Part shown: one piece after another, positions 2,048-47,103 of the stretch
How the letters are laid out: every line of letters begins with the position of its first letter
Numbering within the stretch: position 1 is the stretch's first letter
Source: Thalassolituus maritimus
GTDB taxonomy: Bacteria; Pseudomonadota; Gammaproteobacteria; Pseudomonadales; Oceanobacteraceae
Length of the DNA stretch: 64,000 nucleotides
Reading direction: 5' to 3'
Assembly (NCBI RefSeq): GCF_900156675.1
Contig: NZ_FTOH01000004.1
Coordinates: 253,820-317,819, forward strand
Translations under genes and position numbers: made by a program
Notes under the pieces: model-generated
The model's database searches: none
Told to the model about the DNA's origin: nothing
The model's input: only the letters and a program-made list of their open reading frames with translations

Positions 2048-2804
2048 GTCAACGAAATCTATTCCGGCAAAAGACTTTGTCTTGAGCGTAGAAGGTCTGA
2101 CTGTGTCCTTCGATGGTTTTAAAGCAGTGAACGATTTATCGCTGTACGTCGAAGAACAGGAAATCCGCGTCATTATCGGCCCTAACGGGGCCGGTAAGAC
2201 CACGGTACTGGATCTCATCTGTGGCCGTACCAAGGCCACTGAAGGTTCGATTAAATTTAAGGGTAAAGAATTAACCAAGCTGAACGAGCACCAGATTGTT
2301 CACGCAGGCGTTGGTCGGAAATTCCAGAACCCATCCATCTATGAAGACCTGACGGTATTCGAAAACCTTGAGCTGTCGTTCCCGCGTGGACGCAACGTCT
2401 GGGGTGCCCTCTTCTTCCGTCGCGATAAAGAGGTCGTCGACAAAGTAAAAGAAATCGCCGACATGATTTTTCTCGGCGACAAACTGGATACCTCTGCCGA
2501 TCTGCTCTCTCACGGTCAGAAGCAGTGGCTGGAAATTGGCATGCTGCTGATCCAGGACCCTGAACTCCTGATGCTGGACGAGCCGGTTGCAGGTATGTCG
2601 GTCTCTGAGCGTAAACAGACAGCAGACCTGCTGCACCGAATTACCAAAGACCGCTCAGTACTTGTGATTGAACACGATATGCAATTCGTTGCCGACATTG
2701 CCGACCGGGTGACCGTGCTTCACCAGGGCAAGGTTTTATCTGAAGGCTCAATGGACCGGGTGCAGTCTGACCCGAAAGTCGTTGAAGTTTATCTCGGTCA
2801 CTAA
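2040..2804 (+). CDS. urtD: Urea/amide ABC transporter ATP-binding protein UrtD
   Basis: First ATPase subunit (LivG/UrtD type), 254 residues. The Walker A motif is GPNGAGKTT near residue 50. The signature motif is the UrtD-typical LSHGQKQWLEIGMLL instead of LSGGQ, and the Walker B is LLMLDEPVAGM. A closing EHDM switch histidine is also seen. The SHGQKQWLEI variant is what separates UrtD from ordinary LivG proteins and supports a urea/amide assignment over amino acids. The start codon lies inside the end of the permease gene. It acts on the cytoplasmic face as partner of the next ATPase. Confidence 0.92.
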   Translation: MLESTKSIPAKDFVLSVEGLTVSFDGFKAVNDLSLYVEEQEIRVIIGPNGAGKTTVLDLICGRTKATEGSIKFKGKELTKLNEHQIVHAGVGRKFQNPSIYEDLTVFENLELSFPRGRNVWGALFFRRDKEVVDKVKEIADMIFLGDKLDTSADLLSHGQKQWLEIGMLLIQDPELLMLDEPVAGMSVSERKQTADLLHRITKDRSVLVIEHDMQFVADIADRVTVLHQGKVLSEGSMDRVQSDPKVVEVYLGH

Positions 2805-4578: not shown

Positions 4579-5649
4579 ATGGTCTTCGTCACTGATCGCA
4601 TTCGTTCACAAGCACAATCACAGAGCCAACCGCTTCTGTCGCGGTTCGCTTTTCAGCCGGCTGAAGTATCAGCTCACCTGAAAGCCTGTATCCGTAGTCA
4701 GGATGCTGTGATTGATCGACTTGAATCGCAACTGAACGTGATCAGTGCCGGACTTAACGACCGTCGGCGCCCGCTTCTCTCAGCTTTATTTATCGGCGCG
4801 ACCGGCGTTGGTAAAACCGAAATGGTGCGGCAGGTCGCGCAGGCGATTCACGGTCGCAGCGATGCTTTCTGTCGTATCGATATGAATACTCTCGCACAGA
4901 GCCACTACAGTGCTGCTATTACAGGCGCACCGCCGGGCTATGTGGGCAGCAAAGAAAACCTCAGCTTACTTAATGAAGAACTGATCAGTGGCACAAGCTC
5001 GCGCCCGGGCATTGTCCTGTTCGATGAAATAGAAAAAGCAGACCACTCGGTAGTACTGAGTCTGATGAACATCCTCGACAACGGCACCCTGAAGCTGGCG
5101 TCAGGACAGAAGTCGATCAGTTTCACCAATACGCTGGTGTTTATGACCAGCAATGTCGGCAGCCGCCTCGCGGAGTCATTACGCTGGCTGGACTCCGTTC
5201 CCGGCGTTAACCGCAGTGGTCTTTATAAGCGCGCACTGGAACGCCATTTTAATACGGAATTTATCAACCGCATCGGCATTGTTGAGTACTTCTCTGCACT
5301 GACATCCGAGGATATGCCGAGTCTGGTTGAAGGCCTTGAGCAGTCGCTGAATTCCCAGCTGAAACGCCACAACACCAGTATTGAGCTTGAACCGGCGGCT
5401 CGTGATTTTATCGTCATGACATCCGGATTCCGTAAGTACGGTGCCCGCGCCATCGAACGTCGTTTCCGCGACCTGGTTATTACCGAGGTGGCTCGTCACC
5501 TCACTGCGCACAACGACACTATGAATACACACCTGCAGGGCATTCTGTCTGACCGACAGGTCACTCTGCTCCCGGTTTCCCTTGCGGAAACGCACTCTGA
5601 ATTCCCTTCCGAACCGGAATTTACCCCGAAAAGCCCCAAGGCTACCTAA
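4579..5649 (+). CDS. amiB: AmiB-like AAA+ ATPase of the amidase operon
   Basis: A roughly 356-residue Clp/AAA_2-type ATPase with one ATPase domain. Walker A is GATGVGKT near residue 74, Walker B is IVLFDEIEKAD near residue 150, and the sensor stretch is VFMTSNVGS. A C-terminal ClpB-like lid domain contains FRKYGARAIERRF. There is no N-terminal Clp domain and no second ATPase ring, so it is not ClpA or ClpB. AmiB, encoded behind amiE in Pseudomonas, is the closest remembered match; its role there is unclear (a chaperone-like helper has been suggested). Translation could begin at ATG 4579 or at TTG 4573; neither has a good ribosome site, so coupling with amiE (14 bases upstream) is likely. Confidence 0.75.
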   Translation: MVFVTDRIRSQAQSQSQPLLSRFAFQPAEVSAHLKACIRSQDAVIDRLESQLNVISAGLNDRRRPLLSALFIGATGVGKTEMVRQVAQAIHGRSDAFCRIDMNTLAQSHYSAAITGAPPGYVGSKENLSLLNEELISGTSSRPGIVLFDEIEKADHSVVLSLMNILDNGTLKLASGQKSISFTNTLVFMTSNVGSRLAESLRWLDSVPGVNRSGLYKRALERHFNTEFINRIGIVEYFSALTSEDMPSLVEGLEQSLNSQLKRHNTSIELEPAARDFIVMTSGFRKYGARAIERRFRDLVITEVARHLTAHNDTMNTHLQGILSDRQVTLLPVSLAETHSEFPSEPEFTPKSPKAT

Positions 5650-27692: not shown

Positions 27693-27721
27693 GGCCGCCC
27701 CCTGCAAAGGGGAAACAACCA

Positions 27722-27842
27722 TTCTCGGGGCGGGGTGCAATTCCCCACCGGCGGTATAGCCCGCGAGCGCCTGTTAAACAGGGTCAGCAGATCTGGTGAA
27801 ACTCCAGAGCCGACGGTCACAGTCCGGATATGAGAGAGAGAC
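27722..27842 (+). promoter_or_regulatory. FMN riboswitch (RFN element)
   Basis: The stretch shows the hallmark conserved blocks of the RFN element in order: CTCGGGGCGGGGTGCAATTC, CCCACCGGCGGTATAGCCCG, then CAGATCTGGTGAAACTCCAG, AGCCGACGGTCACAGTCCGG and ATATGAGAGAG, closed by the outer stem. It ends only three bases before the lumazine synthase ATG. No separate U-rich terminator is seen between, so control is probably at translation initiation, with the ribosome site (GAGAGAG) inside or beside the closing stem. High FMN would repress ribH. Confidence 0.95.
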
Positions 27843-27845
27843 GAT

Positions 27846-45078: not shown

Positions 45079-45110
45079 AAAAAAACCGGCCCTCGTGAGG
45101 CCGGTTTTAA
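45079..45110 (-). terminator. Probable groESL terminator
   Basis: On the minus strand: AAAACCGGCC, loop TCACGAGG, GGCCGGTTTT, followed by TTTATG; the T-run is on the minus strand. It lies about 320 bases after the groEL stop, so a long 3' untranslated region that holds the hairpin repeats would precede it. On the plus strand it lacks a clean T-run. Confidence 0.75.
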
Positions 45111-45155: not shown

Positions 45156-45412
45156 GCGTGAGCTTCGACTGTTTGAGTAAATTTAAAGCTGAGAGCAGTT
45201 CAGTCTAGACGCTGGTTTCGATGGTCTGCAATCTGTTCGATGATTGAACGAGGCGTGAGCTTCGACGTGTAGTTCACCTACACGAGAAGCTCACACTGGA
45301 AATGAACAACGTCGAAGACATGAATCAATTGCAAGCTGAGGGCAGTTCAGTCACGGCGCTGGTTTCGACGTGTAGTTCACCTACACGAGAAACCAGCAAC
45401 AAAGAATGAACA
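45156..45412. repeat. Imperfect repeat cluster with two covarying hairpins 3' of groEL
   Basis: Blocks recur in the roughly 320-base spacer: GCGTGAGCTTCGAC at 45156 and 45253; AAGCTGAG[A/G]GCAGTTCAGT at 45186 and 45333; CGCTGGTTTCGA at 45210 and 45357 (the last two pairs are both 147 bases apart). Two hairpins, 45255-45294 and 45358-45397, share an identical core CGTGTAG-TTCAC-CTACACG. Their outer stems differ (GTGAGCTTC/GAAGCTCAC against GCTGGTTTC/GAAACCAGC) yet both pair perfectly. ATGAACAAC follows each hairpin. No reading frame is present in this stretch. Confidence 0.8.
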
Positions 45413-45429
45413 ACCTCAGGCAGCAATTT

Positions 45430-47103
<1,674 letters not shown>

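Follow-up and report, generated by a model that had tools for sequence, protein, structure and literature searches.

Enterobacterial Repetitive Intergenic Consensus sequences (ERIC, also called IRU or RU-1) are tiered palindromes of 127 bp. They are a common target for typing, and to our knowledge it is not known what moves them. In Yersinia, as De Gregorio is said to have found in 2005, ERICs overlap stop codons and do so in one preferred orientation. Another class of dispersed extragenic palindromes, the REPs, prefers the 3' ends of genes. One source describes REPs as units of 20-40 bp, its title naming GTAG and CGTC tags (PMC3733652). The hosts of ERIC named in a review passage are the Enterobacteriaceae and the Vibrionaceae (PMC2229807/PMC10969869), and according to passages of the same sources Yersinia ERICs are co-transcribed and can cause an orientation-dependent loss of the upstream message via an RNase E site (PMC2229807, PMC10969869). 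Repeats of Pseudomonas fluorescens (R0, R2, R178 and others) are described in a further paper as intergenic sequences, some of them containing inverted repeats, with a bias towards the space between gene tails; by description they resemble the family analysed here (PMC2718517).

Two hairpins in the groEL 3' spacer

The window, that is the whole stretch of 64,000 nucleotides of Thalassolituus maritimus DNA that was analysed, contains on its minus strand a groEL reading frame of 546 aa (45430-47070) with its stop codon at 45430-45432. The encoded protein ends in GGMM, as do those of the eight genus loci that were read. Two hairpins follow on the same strand, at 45358-45397 and 45255-45294. The first is made up of a 9-bp outer stem, a T/TC internal loop, a 7-bp inner stem and a GTGAA loop, and the second has the same 28-nt centre between different outer arms. 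The first-pass annotation had described the pair in these terms, with an identical 28-base centre and differing outer stems, and the description was correct, the 9-bp outer arms pairing perfectly. The groEL 3' region folds with a z score of -8.7. By sequence, an intrinsic-terminator-like hairpin with a T-run lies further downstream, at approximately 45079-45110 of the minus strand. This terminator-like hairpin (CCGGCCT...AGGGCCGG) recurs in seven of the eight genus loci read, G007 having another one. Neither of the two upstream hairpins has, by reading of the minus strand, the T-run that would directly follow an intrinsic terminator. With Rfam 15 at gathering score, the only match in the window was an FMN riboswitch (27717-27843, plus strand, 114 bits), and no match to the elements described below was obtained either in the window or in nine short loci. 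At a loose E-value the nine short loci gave 10 matches below gathering score (E 0.04-0.91), none of them relevant.

Searching the window for the 19-base core of the hairpins with up to three mismatches gave four matches, which are two sites seen on both strands each, compared with an average of 0.02 in shuffled sequences. Genome-wide, the exact core is present only at these two groEL-spacer sites, the next best place, on the 3' side of purH, having two mismatches. That the core occurs nowhere else, which the first-pass annotation had named as something that would speak against it, is true of the exact 19 bases in this genome, but not of diverged relatives of the element, which were found at many genes.

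The groEL spacers of eight genomes of the genus were compared, the incomplete assembly G004 having given no match. One or two such hairpins are present in seven of the eight, which answers positively the question, raised with the first-pass annotation, of whether orthologous spacers have the stems. In G006, only a stem resembling the outer tier of the elements remains, as judged by eye. These seven genomes contribute ten hairpins, and no gaps are needed to align them. In the covariance test that had been proposed for such an alignment, 10 of the 16 pairs are changed on both sides, with a covariation of 0.435 compared with 0.160 after shuffling and at most 0.162 when the alignment is slid.

A dispersed palindromic family and its placement at stop codons

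The core pattern CTCATGTA..TACACTCCG was found in 15 of the 55 genomes searched (source genome counted), on contigs that include Thalassolituus, Oleibacter marinus, Oceanobacter, Shewanella and beta-proteobacterial MAGs. From 50 pattern copies we retained 33 after discarding near-duplicates, short copies and most of those with a 52-nt insert, then 32, and finally 27, the last cut removing L066, L076, L098 and both L100 copies for poor fit. The resulting alignment (A1) of 27 non-groEL copies has 131 columns and 40 pairs. Its apex is fixed by the search pattern and the remainder is not; 31 of the 40 pairs show compensatory changes and the covariation score is 0.657, against 0.197 in shuffled alignments. 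A covariance model of 128 positions and 40 pairs, R1, was built from these 27 copies. It describes an element of about 128 nt whose nested stems are set apart by conserved internal loops.

At E<=10 with default filters, R1 had a single match in the window. This match, copy A (45323-45432, minus strand; 50.3 bits, E 1e-13), covers model positions 1-128 and begins at the groEL stop codon, which forms its 5' edge. It measures 110 nt, the two arms of its inner stem tier being short by 10 and 9 nt. The second hairpin lies in a more degraded stretch, copy B (45233-45319, minus strand). The larger R1 search, run with default filters, gave no match there up to E<=10; once the filters were switched off, a search of 22 kb scored it at 12.9 bits (E 0.07). 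The assignment of copy B to the same family is weak by itself, and the identical apex backs it. Among the eight genus genomes in which the spacer could be compared, R1 detected groEL copies in six (24-50 bits), and it missed the hairpin of G003, though that hairpin is real. From these alignments we identify the groEL hairpins as the tips of shortened copies of a dispersed palindromic element, placed between the stop codon and the terminator-like hairpin.

Direct repeats in the spacer had been reported at a constant offset of 147 bases. Only one block, D1, recurs at 147; others recur at 97, 103 and 104. We read these several offsets as resulting from the presence of two short elements plus two right-half remnants in the spacer. 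One remnant, at 45174-45221 (minus strand), would be of the copy-A type, lacking the core and the left arm; it is a 48-nt direct repeat with 83% identity to 45321-45368, and stretches that resemble it by eye are found in G001, G005 and G008. The other, at 45156-45169 (minus strand), would be of the copy-B type and repeats 45253-45266 exactly over 14 nt. Both interpretations were made by eye. Tandem duplication confined to a single groESL spacer would produce direct repeats at offsets of 97-147, and would leave the exact core confined to that spacer in the source genome, as observed. Diverged forms of the element occur, however, beside many further genes and also in other species, which refutes local duplication as the sole explanation, and we give it practically no credence.

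With a threshold of E<=1, R1 matched 27 times in the source genome (G000) and between 2 and 68 times in each of the other eight genus members (G001-G008). At E<=1e-4 about half of the genomes sampled gave matches, namely 89 of 194 in the order and 126 of 274 in the class, the number of matches per genome in these two samples being a lower bound. Further matches in a Shewanella and two beta-proteobacterial genomes (three of the four genomes searched) were not counted as the stop-anchored kind: these 29 matches score 16.5-36.6 bits and measure 90-122 nt, mostly 107-110, with none anchored in sense, one in antisense and eight inside an ORF. Shewanella corallii (G223; L202, L204, L206, L209-L228) has 23 weaker R1 matches, mostly of 110 nt and none sense-anchored at a stop codon, which probably represent another hairpin repeat family.

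We then counted the copies lying close to stop codons. In the nine genomes of the genus, 80 of 114 distinct copies start no more than 15 nt from a sense stop codon, and none (0/114) is found in antisense. This count covers 114 distinct copies among 116 matches in 85 chosen loci, out of 190 R1 matches tallied. In the source genome, 17 of 22 copies begin no more than 15 nt from where the upstream ORF stops, in sense, and 0 of 22 do so in antisense, the 22 being 21 places from the R1 tally (L135 2897-3026 taken from that at E<=1) plus the window copy. The genes that they follow, named by reading the proteins, are dnaK, dnaJ, dapB, purH, eno, glnA, acnD, sufB, prfB, hinT, purU, ffh, leuS, glnS, a thiolase gene and groEL, plus one doubtful ORF. 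No copy lies inside an ORF in a genus sample of 30 from the best-scoring loci, and among the loci examined the same gene recurs as host in several genomes (sufB and dnaK in six each; eno, purH and dnaJ in five each). ORFs were called mechanically, with a minimum of 60 aa for the 114-copy count and 90 aa for the source-genome count and the genus, order and class samples, so that a few of the "genes" (e.g. in L146) may be spurious. In samples made of the best-scoring loci, sense and antisense copies numbered 13 and 2 of 26 in the order and 10 and 7 of 29 in the class, where the bias is weaker than in the genus. Strong stem-loops in bacteria are reported generally to favour the 50 bp after stop codons (PMC1590033), and anchoring alone is therefore not special. 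The one-sided orientation is the stronger point.

The family had been tentatively described as of REP or MITE type. It is indeed a dispersed palindrome family, of an ERIC-like kind as detailed below, but neither the unit size of REPs nor a link to RAYT was found. Mobilisation of a REP/REPIN element by a RAYT (Y1 transposase) would suit extragenic palindromes that are dispersed and sometimes occur as inverted pairs, as between purH and purD. Against it, the R1 element has many tiers and 128 positions, well above a unit of 20-40 bp, and the number of PF01797 genes is unlinked to copy number in the nine genomes: G007 has none with 68 matches, and G006 has three with 2. We regard this explanation as very improbable. 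No transposase for the R1 elements was found by these counts; an ORF in L160 considered as a RAYT matched no Pfam family.

The inverted element pair between purH and purD lies in L134 (2296-2423, plus strand, and 2533-2659, minus strand), and comparable pairs exist in loci of G002, G003, G005 and G008. In L133, an apex-only fragment (5008-5058, plus strand; 47 bits) follows a full copy behind dapB.

Relation to ERIC

Of the known kinds, ERIC comes closest to the R1 family. The R1 family is, like ERIC, a tiered imperfect palindrome of about 127 bp: R1 has 128 positions with 40 pairs, and a model of E. coli ERIC (see below) has 127 positions with 38 pairs, the groEL copy being only 110 nt long. 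An apical TCA/CTCC internal loop is common to both, as seen in the A1 columns and when R1 is aligned on ERIC, and by reading a GCGTT...GCCTT loop is similar in both. The R1 family also prefers one orientation at stop codons, as is reported for Yersinia ERIC. The differences concern mainly the ends and the stems. The fixed 7-bp terminal inverted repeat of ERIC, TATACTC/GAGTATA, is absent from the family consensus, whose outer tier is variable in A1, and the ends of the groEL copy differ from ERIC ends as given by an E. coli alignment (A6). The stems of R1 elements are far more diverse than those of ERIC, and the hosts differ. In the groEL copies part of one stem tier is missing and T/TC is what remains of the ERIC-type loop; these copies escape the ERIC model.

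In order to compare the two families directly, we made use of E. coli ERIC loci. A 48-nt ERIC core occurs in 4850 of the 5426 E. coli genomes searched, and ten matches were examined, corresponding to seven distinct spots (L233, L234 and L238 are the spot of L232). In all seven the best R1 match was ERIC itself, on the same strand, with 9.2-18.5 bits compared with 8.9 for the best match off ERIC; individually these scores are weak (E 0.001 to 1.2). The TCA/CTCC loops are in register in three of the R1-on-ERIC alignments, the other four being judged from coordinates. In three of the seven spots ERIC begins no further than 6 nt from a sense stop codon; in none does it begin within 15 nt of an antisense one.

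The reciprocal search used a model made from E. coli ERIC only (our model R2), that is from seven sequences of which six are nearly alike. It gave nine matches at E<=5 in 117 kb, eight of them inside R1 elements and five with both ends within 4 nt of those of R1; four of the nine lie in loci chosen for the ERIC apex, and three have E above 0.1. The best of them (30.3 bits, E 1.7e-6) has its start at the purL stop codon and shares 38 nt with an R1 element. The ERIC model touches 9 of the 34 R1 elements in the searched loci and misses 25, that of groEL among them. The exact ERIC apex pattern occurs at six places in the 274 class genomes; four of the six are in R1 elements, and two of these four belong to the source genome.

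Because the results of R1 on ERIC, of the ERIC model on R1 elements and of the exact-apex search point the same way when taken together, common descent of the R1 family and E. coli ERIC is probable, at a strength below that of the family assignment itself. We call the family ERIC-like, and not ERIC proper, since the fixed ends of ERIC are absent. The ERIC kind of element is already known. What appears new is the shortened form at groEL, together with the broad set of relatives, varied in their stems, that Pseudomonadales and other groups contain: our literature search, which did not cover the three main ERIC papers and is not proof of absence, found no ERIC relatives in Pseudomonadales among the titles listed, and a text search with the core sequence strings returned no paper containing two of them.

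Upkeep of the arms and possible effect on groESL mRNA

If base pairing were selected at the level of the mRNA, G.U should outnumber A.C among imperfect pairs. We counted both, keeping only pairs that are 80% or more Watson-Crick and show two or more pair types. In the 114 genus copies there were 46 G.U and 75 A.C, and in the 80 anchored copies, read on the sense strand, 23 and 61. After thinning to 56 copies of less than 75% identity, the numbers were 22 and 36 (p 0.087). A looser count on 111 copies and 29 variable pairs gave 84 G.U and 96 A.C; 47 of these G.U cells come from a single pair of columns that in fact belongs to a loop.

Whole blocks differ between some orthologous copies. Behind purL, the element of G001/G003 matches that of G008 at its ends, and most of the interior stems differ; behind eno, the copies of G000/G003 are widely different from those of G005/G008. 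In the groEL spacer of G008, one hairpin joins the left arm of copy A with the right arm of copy B, and looks like the product of recombination in the core that both copies share, or is possibly an assembly error. Such block-wise differences fit, without proving it, an exchange of whole palindrome blocks or a recopying of arms at the DNA level. Template switching can create and repair RNA stems, according to a published study (PMC8794818). The first-pass annotation had argued that, in the absence of selection, copying should not be expected to leave the two arms complementary. With block-wise differences, no excess of G.U and template switching published, complementary arms do not entail selection, and covariation at R1 elements does not prove that selection acts on the RNA.

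These data bear on two further explanations. The elements may be functional 3'-UTR RNAs (a stabiliser, a protein-binding hairpin or the source of a small RNA) whose pairing is selected in the sense transcript, as the placement in sense at stop codons (80 copies against none in antisense), the conserved internal loops, the strong covariation and the recurrence at the same genes would suggest. However, G.U is not favoured over A.C on the sense strand, either in anchored or in thinned copies, the copy number varies from 2 to 68 between congeners and Rfam has no match at gathering score, so that we judge this account unlikely. The elements may also act as DNA only, as a cruciform or hairpin bound by a protein of replication, recombination or the nucleoid, the stop codon being the least harmful place. 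The wobble test, which gave no sign of RNA-level pairing selection, and the location of copies beside genes (0/30 inside an ORF in the genus sample) agree with this. A merely harmless place should nevertheless receive antisense copies too, and the genus has none, though the class sample has seven; we consider a role in DNA alone quite improbable.

We lean towards a joint reading, which we hold to be reasonably probable: the groEL hairpins would be tips of ERIC-like elements that spread in a MITE-like manner, keep their arms by DNA-level processes and modulate the decay of the groESL mRNA. The arms would be kept complementary mainly by block exchange or recopying of the DNA, for which gene conversion, nested insertion and template switching are candidate routes. 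Since copies lie mostly in sense directly at stop codons, often those of core genes, the element would be co-transcribed with the upstream message, as part of its 3' UTR or spacer. At groEL the hairpin could then act on the decay of the upstream groESL mRNA either as a 3' barrier or through an RNase site unmasked when ribosomes disturb the hairpin, as reported for Yersinia ERIC. We favour an effect on the upstream mRNA because of the sense-only placement and of the position between stop codon and terminator; given the family assignment, this is the likeliest role, with about an even chance of being correct.

A wider proposal, somewhat unlikely in its entirety, would place these palindromes in an ancient superfamily that spans the class, with ERIC as no more than its enterobacterial member. 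Stop-anchored in some lineages, and kept intact by DNA-level block exchange and not by selection on RNA, they would have been adopted as a general, orientation-dependent regulator of mRNA 3' ends for core genes, among them those for chaperones, tRNA synthetases and purine synthesis, groEL having a stable short form. Likely relatives across the class, with stems that differ between orthologous genes, offer material to date ERIC and to find its mover. They also allow the sense-only placement at stop codons to be tested as a matter of insertion chemistry or of mRNA control. The family is in addition a warning case, as strong covariation without an excess of wobble pairs may reflect DNA copying and not RNA function.

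The elements themselves contain a further repeat. A sequence of about 52 nt (TGAC[CT]GCCATGGATGGC...GCAGGAGCAAAAATCTGC) is found in the apex, just 5' of CTC and at the same point each time, in L055, L063, L074, L103 and L153, in elements that lie behind the thiolase gene in several genomes. L063 has two copies of it, and a diverged form lies behind eno in G004. It looks like a second repeat that targets the R1 hairpin.
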